A stretch of DNA of 64,000 nucleotides from Rhizophagus irregularis (taxonomy: Eukaryota; Glomeromycota; Glomeromycetes; Glomerales; Glomeraceae). The position numbers were made by a program, and so were the translations under genes. Positions 17,058-51,611 of this stretch are shown piece after piece (position 1 is the first letter of the stretch; each line of letters opens with the position of its first letter). Below the pieces are notes generated by a model. The model ran no database searches, had not been told where the DNA came from, and worked only from the letters and a program-made list of their open reading frames with translations. The DNA lies in the NCBI RefSeq assembly GCF_026210795.1, contig NC_089452.1, positions 1,550,001 through 1,614,000 on the forward strand. The letters are read 5' to 3'.

Positions 17058-17327
17058 TGTTGGCCATTATTTGTTGACCATTATTTGTTGGCTATTATTT
17101 GTTGGCCATTATTTGTTGACTATTATTTGTTGGCCATTATTTTGTTGGCTATTATTTGTTGGCCATTATTTGTTGGCTATTATTTGTTGCCCATTATTTT
17201 GTTGCTCATTATTTGTTGGCTATTATTTATTGGCCATTACTTGTTGGCTATTATTTATTGGCCATTATTTGTTAGCTATTATTTGCTATTATTTGTTGCC
17301 CATTATTTGTTGTCCATTATTTGCTGA
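17058..17327. repeat. 14-bp minisatellite (GTTGGCCATTATTT)
   Basis: About 19 copies of GTTGGCCATTATTT with variants GTTGGCTATTATTT, GTTGACCATTATTT and GTTGCCCATTATTT. As 14 is not a multiple of three, all three frames are open and give leucine/isoleucine-rich peptides; none is a gene. Confidence 0.9.
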
Positions 17328-23271: not shown

Positions 23272-24628
23272 TATACTTGCCGCCCATTTAAATGGGATGG
23301 GAGTCCCATCCCATCCCATCCCATTCCATCCCAAATCCCAAATCCCATTCCCATTCCAATCCCAAATCCCAATCCCAATCCCATCCCAAATCCCAAATCC
23401 CATCCCAAATCCCATTTCCTATAATTTCAGACAAATTTTATAATTCCGGCCAAATTTTCCTTTTTGGGCACTTGAGTAACGTTACACAATCCAAAAAAGG
23501 CAATTTTGATTCTCATCAAAAACGGGGAAATGAGTTACACAATAATCCAAAAAAGGATATTTTATGTCGATCACTTAATTCCGGCCAAAATTAAAAATTA
23601 CGTGACTCCGGCGATAAATAGCAAACTCCTTTTTTATTAACATAAAATTTTTTCAAATATAATACTCTTTAATCTAAGAATTGATTAATTACAGATTATA
23701 TGATAATAATATGAATGCTTAATAGGTTAATACTTTACAAATAATTAAATATACAAAAAATTATAAATAAATCTCTTTAAAGATATTATATCTTATACTG
23801 TATATGCTAATAATTTAAATTTAAATTAAAAAAATTAGAAAATTAAATCCATTTTTATTGAATACCAAGCCATTTTAATTAAATACTATGTTAATGAATT
23901 ATTATTTATTATTTTATAGATAAATTTTTTATTATTTTAATAGATAGGTTAAAATAAAGTTAAAATATTACATTTTTGTTATAAAAAATTTATAATTTTG
24001 TAATGTTTTTTTTATAATAAAAAGGCAAATGCAACAATAAAAAATTAATTCCAAATATTTCTTATTTAATTGATATTACAGGACCTCAGACATCTATTAT
24101 AGAATTCATAATGGCTTTTTGCAAAAATTAACCTAATCTGCTCTTTTTTTTTATTATTTCTTGCAAGAAATATTTTTATTTTATAGAGCTTAATATTAGC
24201 TACAAATTAAAAAAAAGTTTATCAAAATTGGATCACTGGATATTGAGAAAATCGCAAAAAACTAATTTGAAAAAGGACCGTAATACTAGAGCTGTAATTC
24301 TGGCCGGAATTATATGATCGGCATAAAAATTCCTTTTTCGGAATGCTTGTGAAACCAAATCTCCCGTGGGAAGAAAAATTTCCTTTTTTGGAATTTTGTG
24401 TAACATCACGTGATAGATAGACCAATGGGAGTAAGGTTACACAATATACATGTATAAGATTAATGGGATATGGGATGGGATATGGGATATGGGATTGGAA
24501 TGGGATTGGGATTTGGGATTGGAATGGGATTATGACAAATGGGATGGGATAAATGGGATATGGGATGGGATATGGGTGGGATGGGATATGGGATTCTCCC
24601 AATCCCATTTATATGGGCGGCAAGTATA
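23272..24628. mobile_element. 1.36-kb hAT-like element with GGGAT-type subterminal repeats
   Basis: Perfect 16-bp inverted ends TATACTTGCCGCCCAT (23272-23287; complement at 24613-24628). The 8-bp target duplication GACGGTAA is identical on both sides (23264-23271; 24629-24636), as in hAT elements. Next to each end lies a dense run of CCCATCCCAAATCCC (left, 23295-23417) or its complement GGGATGGGATATGGG (right, 24467-24600), likely transposase-binding arrays. Farther in both halves carry TTACACAAT and TTCCGGCCAAAA-type motifs. No transposase ORF: a non-autonomous derivative. Open frames here are repeat-driven. Confidence 0.88.
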
Positions 24629-46068: not shown

Positions 46069-49000
46069 ATGGCTCATGATAATAATAAAGGTAAAAAGCG
46101 CATGAATATTTAATATAAATTAGAATTATTCTAACATTTTTAATCAAATTAATCAAATTGCAATAAGTTTCAAGTAGCACCAAGGAACCTGAAGGTAAAT
46201 ATAATATATTAAACAAGCTAAAACACTAAACAGTAAAATTTTTAAATAAAAATAAATTTACATTAATTTGAACTAACTATATTTTTATTTAAAAATTATG
46301 TTAAATGATTTAGCTTGTAAGTTAATAGGTTATTTTATAATTGAATAATAATGGAATTACTTATTTTTGTTATATTCCATATAACTAAATGATTCATTTA
46401 ACGATTAATAATACTATAGTTGGTAAGTTATTGGCTATTTAAATCTTTAACTCTTTACTTATTTTTCATAATATTCAAATAACTAAATTTTTTGTTCAAA
46501 TAACTACTTAATAATTAATTATATCGCAGATGGTAAATTACAATATTTAATAATATTCTTAAATATCAATAATTTATATAACTTAACTAATTATACATTC
46601 TCTATTTAAATGATTAGAGTGTAAGTGATATATTTAATTTACAGCATACACTTTCGTATTATATTTCATATCACTAATTAATAATTAATAATACTATAGG
46701 GTGTAAGTTATATGTTATCAACATTTCTATTACTTAGATAGGTTAAACTAACTAATTTCTTTGCTTAAAAATTATTTGGTGATTTCTTTTAGTTGGTAAG
46801 TTATAAGTTATTTATTTGATTCTATTATTACATATTTATATAATATTTACATATAATTTAAACTTTACATTAATTAGAAAGTAAGTTAGAATTGATTTAT
46901 CTAATTTCATAATATAATATTTCTAAACTAACTAATTTAAAAAAATTATTAGGGGGTAAATTATTTATTTAATTCTATTATTGCATATTTATATAATATT
47001 TACTTTATTAAATTAATTATTAAACTTATTTCATAATATAGGGTGTAAGTTACTTATTTAATTCTATTATTGTATATTTATATAACATTTCATATAATAT
47101 AATTCTTTATTTAAAAAATTATCATAATATACTAGGGAGTAAGTCATCTATTTTAATTTTCCTTATTTATATAATACAGTATTTACATATTGCTTAAACT
47201 AACTAAATTCTTTATTTAATTACTAGAACGTGAGTTATGAGTTATTTATTTAATTCTATTATTTATATAATATTTCATATAATTTATTAAAACTAACTAA
47301 ATTCTTTATTTAAAAAAATTACAGGGTGTAAGTTATTTATTTAATTCTATTATTACATATTTATATATAAATATTTACATATAATTAAACTAACTATATT
47401 TTTTATTTAAAACTATTTTAATAATGTAGGGGGTAAGTTATGTATTTTAATTCTATTATTACATGTTTGTACAATATTTATATAACATATAATTTAAACT
47501 AACTAAATTTTCTATTTGATTAGAACGTAAGTTATAAGCTATTATTTAATTCTATTACTACATATTCAAATAATATTTCATATAATTTAAACTAACTAAA
47601 TTCTTTATTTTAAAATTATTAAAATCATTTCATAATATAGGATGTAAGTTATTTAAGTTATTGATTTAATCCTATTATTATTTATTTATATAATACTTAC
47701 CTACATATGATTTAAACTACTAAATTCTTTATTTGAAAAATTATTAAAATTGTTTCATAATATAGGGGGTAAATTATTTATTTAATTCTATTATTGTATA
47801 TTTAAATAATATTTACATATAATTTAAACTAACTAAATTCCTTATTTAATTAGATCGTAAGTTATAAGTTATTTATTTTATTCTATCATTAGTTACATAT
47901 TTATATAATATTTCATATAATTTAAACTAACTAAATTCTTTATTTAAAAAATTATTAATAATATAGGGTGTAAGTTATTTATTTAATTCTATTATTACAT
48001 ATAATTTACATACTAATTTAAACTATTTATTTAAAAATTGTTAAAATTATTTCATAATATAGGGAGTAGTAAGTTATTTATTTAATTCTAGTATTACATA
48101 TTTATATCATTTTACATATAATAACATAAATTCTTTATTTTATTTCATAATATAGGAGGTAAGTTATTTATTATCTAATTCTATTATACATAGTTACATA
48201 ATATTTACATATAATTTAGACTAAAGTCCTTTATTTTAAAAAATTATTAAAATTATTTCATAATAGGGGGTAAGTTATTTGATTCTACTATATAATATTT
48301 ACATATAATACAAACTAACCAAATTCTTTACTATTTAAAATTTTATCTCATAATATAGGGGGTATGTTATTTATTTAATTCCAGTATTATTACATATAGT
48401 ATTTATAATACTTACTATAATTTAGACTAACTAAATTCTTTATTTAATTAGAATGTAAGTTATAAATTATTTATTTAAATCTATTATTACATGTTTATAT
48501 GATAGTTACATATATATTTGAACTAATTATTTAAAAAATTATCATAATATAGGGAGTAGTAAGTCATTTAATTAATCTATTAATTATTATATACTGTATT
48601 TATATATAACTAAATTCTTTATCTAAAAATTATTAAATTATTTGATAACATAGGAGGTGAGTTACTTATTTAATCCTATTATTAGCAGCCGGAGATAATC
48701 CCGAACGAAAGATAATGGTTCGGGATATTTATATAATATTTACATTTTAACTAACCAAATTCTTTATTTAAAAAATTATTTAATAAAATAGCATGTAAGT
48801 TATTTATTATTGGTTATATATTTTATATAATATTTAGGTTTAATTAACTGAATACTTTATTTGAAAAATATCTGTTACTTTAGTTGGTAAGTTATTGATT
48901 ATAGGTTATATATATATATATGTATTAATACAAAAACTAAGTTTACACTTTATTATAATTCTAATTAAATTTTAGAGTAAGTGTTATTTTTTTAAAATTT

Positions 49001-50327
49001 GATACAAATTTTGATATCAATTTTAATTATTTAAATTTTAGATTTGGAAAAAGTGGAAATGCAATTATTGATGAATTTATTCTAAAAAAAAATTTAAAAT
49101 GGATTCCTTATAATAAATTTACAAATATTGAATATCTTGATGAAGGAGGATTTGGTTCTATATACAAAGCTACTTGGTTAAATAATAGTGAAGCTAAAGA
49201 AGTGATTCTTAAATGTCACAATAATTTAAATGAAAATTTAAATGAATTTTTAAATGAAGTATGTTTATATATTATTTATTTATTTATTTTTTTAAAATCT
49301 AAATTATAATTTAATTATGCTAATATATTGTTATTTTTACAGTGGAAATATCATGAAAGTTGTTTAAAATCATTTAATATAATTTATTTCTATGGATTTA
49401 CAAAAAACCCAGATACTTTAAATTATATGGTAGTAATGGATTATGCAAACAAAGGTAATTTAAGAGGAAATTTAACAAAAATAATCAAAAATAATTGGAA
49501 ACAAAAATTACATATGTTGCATGAAATTATTTCTGGGCTTAATGAGATACATAAACAAAATCTTGTTCATTGTGATTTTTATGATGGCAACATTTTAAAT
49601 CATAAGGAAGATAAAATTTATATTAGTGATTTAGGATTATGTCAGCCTGCAAAATCATTTTTAAAAAAGTATGATATTTATGGTGTTATGCCATTCATGG
49701 CCCCTGAGGTTTTAAGAGGTAATTCTCATACTACAGCTAGTGATATATATGGTTTTTCTATGATTATGTGGGAATTTACATCTGGAGTGCCACCATTTAA
49801 TAATAGAGCACATGAACTTCAACTTAGTTTAAGTATTTGTAAGGGTGAACGTCCTGAAATTATTGAAAATACTCCACAATGCTATGTAGATTTAATGAAA
49901 AAATGTTGGGATGAAAATCCATTAAAAAGGCCATCTTCTGAAGAAGTTTTAGAAATTATTGAAGAATGGATTTTTCTTCCATATCAAATGAAAGCTAAGG
50001 ATATTAATGAAAAATTAAAATGCAATGTTATGGAATTTATAAATGCACCAATTGAGCATAATAACCTTTCTACTGAATCTCATCCACAAGCATGTTATAC
50101 AAGTCGCTTACTTGATTTTACTAGTAAAAAATTGAATGAAATTCTTGAAAGTGAAGATTTACAAGAAATGCTAATAAGTGATAATTTGAACGATTGTATA
50201 ATTAAAAATATGAAGTCATTCGGATTAGGTATGTAATATATTATAAAAAAAAGCAATTTCGCAAATTATTTAGTGTAATTGATTTAATTTATTTAATTAT
50301 CTAGATATTAAACATGAAAATAACTAA
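46069..50327 (+). CDS. Protein kinase (HCD/DLG type) with a 5' micro-exon array
   Basis: Proposed gene: exon 1 46069-46090 (MAHDNNK), exon 2 46168-46194 (SSSTKEPE), then 28 tiny blocks (next entry), exon 49042-49258, exon 49343-50228, last exon 50305-50327 (DIKHENN, stop); about 420 residues. Without the last splice the frame stops at 50236. The kinase domain shows GEGGFGSIYKA-type loop (DEGGFGSIYKA), VILK lysine, VHCDFYDGN (HCD for HRD, D and N kept), SDLGL (DLG for DFG), MAPEV, MIMWEFTSG and CWDENPLKRP. Catalytic Lys, Asp, Asn and metal-binding Asp are present, so activity is likely. The segment GNAIIDEF..LKWIPYNKF before the domain is, from memory, typical of Glomeromycotina kinases. The kinase part is certain; the 5' exons are inferred. 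Confidence 0.8.
46195..49041 (+). repeat. Tandem array of about 29 intron-like units with 3-nt spacers
   Basis: Units of about 75-138 bp each begin GTAAGTTA (or GTAAAT, GTGAGT), contain AAACTAACTAAATTC, and end ATATAG or TTAG. Between each AG and the next GT lie exactly 3 nt in 25 cases (starts 46314, 46420, 46530, 46618, 46700, 46793, 46878, 46953, 47042, 47136, 47227, 47325, 47430, 47524, 47641, 47766, 47854, 47967, 48156, 48267, 48359, 48452, 48654, 48792, 48884), 6 nt in two (48063, 48553; GGAGTA) and 1 nt in the last (48976). The array lies in sense orientation directly before the kinase exon. The repeat is certain; whether it is spliced unit by unit is open. Confidence 0.9.
48685..48726. 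other. Small hairpin insertion in one array unit
   Basis: One unit carries about 42 extra bp, containing TCCCGAAC..GTTCGGGA, a perfect 8-bp-arm hairpin more G+C rich than the array. It may be a micro-MITE. Confidence 0.5.
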
Positions 50328-50329
50328 TT

Positions 50330-50854
50330 GTTTATGTTTTTTAAAAAAATATATTTTTTGTGATATTTGATTTATGCATCCAACAAAAATTCTCCTGTTT
50401 TGTTCTTTTTAAATTTATTTAAACACTAAGATGAGAGTAGTAAAATATTTACAAGTTTCTTAGTTTGTAATTTAAATAACTCCCTTTTTTTATAGCTTAT
50501 CCAAATGTTAAATATATATATTCTCTTTTTCCATTTTATTTAGAATTATTTAAACACTAAGGCTAAAGTAGTAAACATTTTATAAGTTTCTTAGTTTGTA
50601 ATTTAAATAAATCATTTTTTCTTTTTTTAACTTATTCAATTTATATTAAATACAAATTACCAAAAAAATATAAGCATATAAGACCATTCCTAGTGTTGTA
50701 GGATCAGGATATATGATTTGAAACTTTTTATATACATTGTAAAGAGCTGATGACATTAAAGTAATAGAATTTCATTAAGTTTAAAATTTGTAAATCAAGT
50801 AAAAAAATATTCTTTAAATTCATAAATATAGCATAAACTTAAAGATGTTGTTTC
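50330..50854. other. Kinase 3' flank with a duplicated block
   Basis: AACACTAAG..GTAGTAAA..AAGTTTCTTAGTTTGTAATT appears twice (about 50422-50480 and 50555-50610), a local direct repeat. No gene. Confidence 0.45.
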
Positions 50855-50988
50855 GATATCATTTCTATTATCATTTTGATATCATTTCGATATTGATTTA
50901 ATATCGAAATGATATCAAAGTGATAATACTATCATATCGATATTAAATCGATATTGAAATGATATCAAAATGATAATGAAATGATATC
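50855..50988. repeat. Palindrome of GATATC/AATATCGA motifs
   Basis: About 52 bp at each end pair nearly perfectly (GATATCATTTCTATTATC at the left, its complement at the right) around a 25-30-nt centre. Each arm also contains internal GATATC repeats, giving a likely cruciform. Confidence 0.7.
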
Positions 50989-51611
50989 ACTTGAAAACTT
51001 AAAGTTTCTGTAAAGAATATTATATTGGGTAAATCAATTTTGATTGTTGATACAAAAATAAATTTTGGACTCAAGGTCAAAAGTCCACTCTCCAAATTGC
51101 TTGTTGAGTATTGGAAACAAATAGTTATTCCTTTTTTTTTAGTGACGCATTTCTTTATTAATTGAATCATATTTGCATAGATTACACATTAATTACATTA
51201 ATTTTAGAAATACATAGAGGTAAAAATTGAATATCCCTATAACTAAAAAGTCTATCTATTTTATTTTATTTTATTTTATGTAAAGCCGGAAAGACTATTT
51301 AAGAGAACATAGAATCTAAAAGACCTTGCCCAACCTTTAGTCCATCATCCACCCAAAGATCTGGACGGACCCATACTTCTTGTTATATAGACTGATCCTG
51401 AATTACTACCAATAGAGGAACAGGTACCCACCAGAAAAAAATAAAATCAATTAAATGACGAGCACTAATCCGTATTTTTCTTTCAACCCATAAGGTTGCC
51501 ACCTGTAAATACTGCAAGAGGTGGAATGGTTTACACTATTTTAAGTTGTTAAAATAGTACAAATAGAAACTATATGTATAAAATCTATATAATAAAACGA
51601 ACGAACAGATA

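Follow-up and report, generated by a model that had tools for sequence, protein, structure and literature searches.

The 64,000-nt stretch of the Rhizophagus irregularis genome analysed here (contig NC_089452.1; C24:1550001-1614000 in the genome searched, hereafter the window) contains a forward-strand protein kinase gene in which an array of near-identical introns, separated by tiny spacers, precedes the kinase exons. The search covered this one genome, of 146,748,485 bases in 32 contigs. Positions 46195-49041 were parsed with a semi-Markov parser in which spacer lengths from 0 to 15 nt had equal prior weight, donor weights were set by hand and acceptors followed a first-AG rule; they yielded 29 intron-like units and 28 spacers, of which 25 were 3 nt, two were 6 nt and one was 1 nt long. 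An earlier inspection of the letters alone (the sequence-only reading) had given identical counts; it had also called the spacers near-identical, a description that fits the introns, since the spacers vary. The array very probably consists of constitutive single-codon exons of a kinase gene family, as judged from the genomic sequence.

The array-bearing kinase gene

The window gene was modelled with 32 exons which, when joined in silico, encode an open protein of 415 aa matching the kinase domain family PF07714 (E 9.4e-42). The predicted order is an ATG exon, a short exon 2, 27 one- or two-codon exons, then the 1-nt exon and two kinase exons (Table 1). Dropping the 1-nt exon from the model leads to a stop after 59 residues. 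Removal of exon 2 (27 nt) keeps the frame, so that the frame offers no proof of this exon. Most array donors in the window are GTAAGT, and a looser branch motif occurs in the units at uneven distances. One array intron carries a hairpin insert at about 48684-48730, with arms around AATCCCGAAC and GTTCGGGAT (by eye), which extends it to 135 nt and leaves its splice signals intact.

Table 1. Exons and array of the window kinase gene (positions within the window; Model, window gene model).
Feature	Position	Strand	Basis or remark
Exon 1, start codon, phase-1 end	46069..46090	+	By-eye comparison with exon 1 of L001, L004, L007, L011, L022
Exon 2 (27 nt), phase-1 end	46168..46194	+	Alternative acceptor 46175 gives stop after 57 residues
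Array, 29 introns of 65-135 nt and 28 tiny exons	46195..49041	+	Parse
One-codon exon CTT	46314..46316	+	Model
One-codon exon TTG	46420..46422	+	Model
One-codon exon ATG	46530..46532	+	Model
One-codon exon AGT	46618..46620	+	Model
One-codon exon GGT	46700..46702	+	Model
One-codon exon TTG	46793..46795	+	Model
One-codon exon AAA	46878..46880	+	Model
One-codon exon GGG	46953..46955	+	Model
One-codon exon GGT	47042..47044	+	Model
One-codon exon GGA	47136..47138	+	Model
One-codon exon AAC	47227..47229	+	Model
One-codon exon GGT	47325..47327	+	Model
One-codon exon GGG	47430..47432	+	Model
One-codon exon AAC	47524..47526	+	Model
One-codon exon GAT	47641..47643	+	Model
One-codon exon GGG	47766..47768	+	Model
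One-codon exon ATC	47854..47856	+	Model
One-codon exon GGT	47967..47969	+	Model
Two-codon exon GGAGTA	48063..48068	+	Model
One-codon exon GAG	48156..48158	+	Model
One-codon exon GGG	48267..48269	+	Model
One-codon exon GGG	48359..48361	+	Model
One-codon exon AAT	48452..48454	+	Model
Two-codon exon GGAGTA	48553..48558	+	Model
One-codon exon GAG	48654..48656	+	Model
One-codon exon CAT	48792..48794	+	Model
One-codon exon TTG	48884..48886	+	Model
1-nt exon A, phase 1 to phase 2	48976..48976	+	Frame; 1 nt in 36/36 genes
Kinase exon 1, FGKSGN..WIPY..GGFG	49042..49258	+	Model
Kinase exon 2, ends at stop codon	49343..50236	+	Model; PF07714 on joined protein

A family of array-bearing kinases

The sequence-only reading treated the array as a feature of one gene; it is instead a property of a kinase family whose members are put at about 150. 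The window array DNA, used as a query, found 283 matching places in the genome, the best 150 of which formed the window locus and 31 further array regions. Four more loci were taken from the five best kinase-exon matches outside the listed array rows (the fifth being the window itself) in a search for family members devoid of arrays, and all four were found to carry one. In two further loci, drawn from the list of pattern matches described below, the array is likewise followed by a kinase exon, which belongs to a more distant type. In total 38 loci were inspected, and in all 38 an array precedes this kind of kinase exon, so that the unit of the window recurs in other kinases of the genome, where the sequence-only reading had proposed to look for it. 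Among the 36 loci that were fully parsed, the array always led to one kind of kinase exon (AG/A TTT GGA..., the slash marking the splice boundary; RFGKSGN...WIPY).

A strict pattern, GTAAGT-N73-103-TAG-NNN-GTAAGT, occurred 3818 times genome-wide, against 24 occurrences of its reversed control. With a 4-nt spacer the same pattern gave 18 occurrences (control 24), and with a 2-nt spacer 21 (control 21), which excludes a chance origin of the 3-nt spacing. The 36 loci hold 981 of the strict 3-nt matches, compared with 1500 3-nt spacers recovered by the parser once longer introns were allowed; extrapolating from this ratio, the genome would contain roughly 5,800 one-codon exons. A pattern for the terminal 1-nt exon gave 122 matches against 3 in the control (at least one site, at C7:3159826, being counted twice) and recovered 30 of the 36 known genes, which extrapolates to about 146 array-bearing kinase genes. 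For the first kinase exon, the genome search gave at least 151 matches (150 of 3838 candidates scored). The number of 3-base exons per gene ranges from 21 to 91, with a median of 39.

An intron-free paralog was sought with a query of conserved codons joined to the kinase exon, and none was present among the at least 150 matches listed: no listed match begins before query position 9, which would lie more than 6 residues ahead of FGKSGN, and among the longer matches several cross a stop. The N-terminal composite, as a query, found 45 matching places. The genes at L001, L004 and L007 begin with MGQC..., which resembles an acylation signal, so that in genes of this type the array segment may connect the kinase with a membrane anchor; the window gene differs in its N-terminus. 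Between exon 2 and the array, L001 (about 1040-1155, gene strand) and L004 (about 1255-1368) have an extra ordinary exon with acidic SGTEEFE-like repeats, which was not found in the window gene. At L033 (about 560-1400, gene strand) the block of exon 1 and exon 2 is present three times ahead of one array.

Spacer length and splice signals

With longer introns and GC donors allowed, the flat-prior parser found 1526 of 1571 spacers in the 36 genes to be exactly 3 nt long; earlier settings had given 1346 of 1384 and, on allowing longer introns, 1500 of 1545. Where both flanking introns measured 55-140 nt, 1422 of 1451 spacers had 3 nt, and 10 of the other 29 had 6 nt. The last exon is 1 nt long in each of the 36 genes (A in 34, T in one and C in one). 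The sequence-only reading assigned a CTAAC-type branch point to every unit; a strict CTAAY site is present in only 1085 of the 1364 introns upstream of spacers in the 36 arrays. The arrays also include 26 GC-AG introns with GCAAGT donors, all 26 of them preceded by a 3-nt exon. These occur in L030 (nine introns), L006 (eight), L023, L017, L007, L009 and L047. In array introns of L019 and L023 a G-rich element (GGGAGGGG...) has been inserted repeatedly, which the parser misreads as exons of 8-9 nt. Candidate traces of intron loss through spliced messenger RNA, the 6-nt exons ATTCTT (L027) and TTATTG (L031), were too few and were not used.

Reading frame

Exons 1 and 2 of the window gene lead to a phase-1 end, and in L001 and L004 the exons ahead of the array, their further ordinary exon included, were found by eye to end likewise. 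In 15 loci, the window among them, the pre-array exon shares the ending ACC AAG GAA TCT AAA G, or variants of it. The kinase exon requires phase 2, that is, two preceding bases, so that 3n+1 bases are needed between the two; a set of 3-nt exons with a single 1-nt exon supplies exactly this. In phase 1 each codon takes one base from the 3' end of a spacer and two from the start of the following spacer; these lie about 100 nt apart in the DNA, and local sequence habits should therefore have no influence.

Across normal introns, none of the 1432 neighbouring spacer pairs formed a phase-1 stop, against 47.2 ± 5.4 expected from within-array shuffles (2000 shuffles, range 29-66). Counting every distinct neighbour pair a single time in each array left the result unchanged, with 0 stops in 1054 pairs where shuffles gave 41.6 ± 4.9. 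Phase 2 gave 242 stops in 1432 pairs. Stops in phase 0 were few (7 of 1507) because the spacer repertoire is nearly without stop triplets, and it is the flanking exons, not this count, that exclude phase 0. A phase-0 reading of the window (LLMSGLKGGG...) was rejected, because translation ends at a stop after 57 residues when exon 2 is taken from 46175; across the family, phase 0 has stops in five genes with an open first kinase exon (5 of 1346 spacers). Joins over omitted spacers behaved as expected by chance, with stops in 47 of 1338 joins when one spacer was skipped (44.0 ± 5.3 expected), in 45 of 1251 when two were skipped (41.4) and in 37 of 1168 when three were skipped (38.6). Thus only the full, ordered chain is free of stops, and in the form exposed to selection all spacers are therefore probably kept, in order. 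When pairs at long introns were included, three stops appeared at first in 1279 pairs, two of which proved on inspection to reflect missed units with GC donors; allowing GCAAGT donors added the 26 GC-AG introns and removed these two, leaving one stop in 1475 pairs.

Weighing of the explanations

The sequence-only reading had offered three accounts of the array, and the reading-frame evidence lends strong support to one of them, a run of 3-nt micro-exons. Another proposed that the spacers are ratchet points for the stepwise, recursive removal of a single 2.8-kb intron, none of them being present in the messenger RNA. Chains of acceptor-donor pairs, such as this process would use, are indeed present, and six of the 1571 spacers have zero length. 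Six is nevertheless far from a rule of zero-length exons, an exon 2 spliced straight onto the kinase exon in the window model is out of frame and meets a stop after 30 residues, and a frame constraint that holds for the full order only is not expected of sequences that are never retained; recursive splicing is thus very improbable. The third account, a satellite grown from one intron, stands in part. The tandem structure and the repeated spacer blocks described below fit growth by duplication, and it is the non-coding nature of such a satellite, lying upstream of or inside the kinase gene with the spacers as filler, that conflicts with the frame constraint. Filler would not be expected to avoid phase-1 stops altogether, to keep the 3-nt rule together with a 1-nt exon of exactly the required size in all 36 genes, or to stand ahead of this type of kinase exon in all loci inspected, and a non-coding satellite appears, if anything, marginally less credible than recursive splicing.

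A further possibility is that splicing includes or omits the single-codon exons freely, giving many isoforms, as has been suggested for the micro-exon genes of schistosomes. The loss of any single 3-nt exon causes no frameshift, and fused introns of about 200 nt, in which a junction has been lost, do exist. If skipping were common and selected, however, the joins that it creates should avoid stops, and those over one skipped spacer are at chance level; combinatorial splicing of this kind is unlikely, though it deserves more weight than either of the two accounts above.

Several points weigh against constitutive single-codon exons. The one remaining phase-1 stop, in L002, adjoins a lost donor. 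In eight of the 36 genes (L002, L006, L015, L019, L023, L026, L028 and L031) the frame is not kept by clean spacers; some of these genes probably contain inserted elements misread by the parser, and others are probably decaying. The first kinase exon is weakly constrained, with a median dN/dS of 0.67. Within arrays, the middle spacer position, the wobble base of phase-1 codons, is the least variable in only 4 of 15 arrays when unit pairs with identical flanks are compared. Finally, the training sites of the first splice matrix all had 3-nt spacing, the later rules being hand-set with a flat length prior, and more weight is therefore given to the strict-pattern counts, which need no parser and are independent of the splice matrix.

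If the array exons are spliced and translated, as the genomic sequence suggests, each intron of about 100 nt would have its own donor and acceptor and would be removed as an ordinary small fungal intron, small introns with strong donors being recognised individually. Removal would probably be sequential, each codon being joined to the growing upstream exon, since a 3-nt exon can hardly accommodate two splice complexes simultaneously. The product would carry a variable stretch, about 20 to 90 residues long, that separates a short N-terminus from the kinase domain.

Codon variation and array growth

Of 870 unit pairs (354 within one array) that were identical at all 111 positions compared in the flanking introns, only 35% had the same spacer. 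In these pairs, which are not independent, per-site differences at spacer positions 1, 2 and 3 were 0.40, 0.12 and 0.50; within one array they were 0.18, 0.07 and 0.23, and between arrays 0.55, 0.15 and 0.69. Positions 1 and 3 are codon positions 2 and 1 in phase 1, and they adjoin the splice sites, so that splicing alone should make them the most constrained. By divergence class, beginning with identical flanks, the strict minimum fell at position 2 in 4 of 15, 9 of 19 and 15 of 18 arrays for pairs within arrays, and in 5 of 7, 13 of 18 and 23 of 27 cases for pairs between arrays. Homogenisation of introns, or insertion of intron copies, could contribute to the contrast between spacers and introns.

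The arrays contain 61 repeated words of four successive spacers, compared with 7.6 ± 3.0 in shuffles, and 36 repeated words of five, compared with 1.1 ± 1.2, indicating that arrays grow by duplication of blocks. The first kinase exons of L013 and L015 differ by a dN of 0.028 and a dS of 0, and their arrays are almost unrelated. Where a junction has been lost, two introns are fused and just one codon is dropped, and the array is thus tolerant of such losses.

The combination of near-identical introns with differing codons suggests a hypervariable segment shuffled codon by codon. The introns would serve as a recombination substrate, with about 100 nt of homology for each codon, so that unequal exchange in frame could gain, lose and shuffle codons unit by unit, and splicing would hide the intron repeats from the protein. 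The array segment would then be under selection for change, and the hypervariable segment might set the partners or the self/non-self identity of each kinase. Such a codon-shuffling engine, acting in about 150 kinases, is a tentative proposal, somewhat more likely wrong than right. Arbuscular mycorrhizal fungi have long been regarded as ancient asexuals.

Comparison with known systems

Recursive splice sites have closely spaced splice signals with no exon retained between them; the array shares the close signals and differs in having a predicted translated codon between each pair. Introner elements are near-identical introns present in many copies in one genome and scattered over unrelated genes, whereas the equally uniform introns described here lie in tandem and, in the 38 loci inspected, within one kinase family. 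Spliceosomal twin introns, as presented in the part of the source covered, likewise have closely spaced splice signals and retain no exon between them (PMC5639578). In a twin intron the inner intron splits a splice signal of the outer one; in the arrays, each unit apparently has its own donor and acceptor, with a 3-nt exon between units in 1526 of 1571 cases and a putatively translated codon there.

The closest resemblance is to the micro-exon genes (MEGs) of schistosomes and tapeworms, which, in the sections covered, are described as having long runs of tiny exons with lengths divisible by three and a fast-evolving product (PMC7653826, PMC4350168). The operational definition given there, at least seven exons of which at least half are shorter than 70 nt and divisible by three, with a run of at least four (PMC7653826), embraces the window gene, in which 28 of 32 exons, all consecutive, are of this kind. 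Long runs of tiny, three-divisible exons and fast change are common to both. MEG exons are in general only required to be shorter than 70 nt, and in the same partial accounts skipping is the proposed source of variation; in the array genes nearly all exons are of one codon, the introns are near-identical copies and the chain is apparently constitutive, the joins over skipped exons giving no sign of stop avoidance in the sequence. The product is moreover a protein kinase, and the organism a fungus.

Functional 1-nt exons are reported for APC11 of Arabidopsis, VPS55 of plants and CYP621A of Fusarium (PMC4674806, PMC8831610, PMC12940212). As far as the portions covered describe it, the CYP621A exon bridges a phase-1 end and a phase-2 start, like the 1-nt exon of the array genes; the 1-nt exons of all three are solitary there, and here the 1-nt exon ends a chain of 3-nt exons. 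Isolated 3-nt micro-exons are described in homothorax of Drosophila and in lipS of Dactylellina haptotyla (PMC7392893, PMC5639578), where, in the parts covered, they number one or two per gene, compared with 21-91 in the arrays. The R. irregularis assembly paper mentions 2,533 kinases and, in the sections covered, makes no mention of one-codon arrays (PMC10234402). Among the open-licence papers listed in the literature searches, covered mostly as titles and the openings of abstracts, no description of one-codon exon arrays was found.

If confirmed in RNA, the arrays would take exon structure to its limit, with one codon per exon, dozens of such exons per gene and thousands per genome. They would raise the question of how the spliceosome maintains order where exons are too short for binding, and would allow intron definition and sequential splicing to be tested in a natural setting. 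Codon shuffling, if true, would give introns a new role, as spacers that allow recombination of single codons. The N-termini of array kinases would then probably be wrong where annotation relied on standard aligners, and this in a fungus of central importance for plant nutrition.

Other repeats in the window

Immediately 3' of the kinase gene, at 50844-50989, lies a palindromic tandem repeat (GATATC/CGATAT). A tandem array of TGTTGGCCATTATT, with about 19 copies, occupies 17058-17323. Arrays of TCCCAA-type and ATGGGAT-type repeats, at 23304-23414 and 24463-24595, are roughly complementary and about 1 kb apart, and possibly form an inverted pair.

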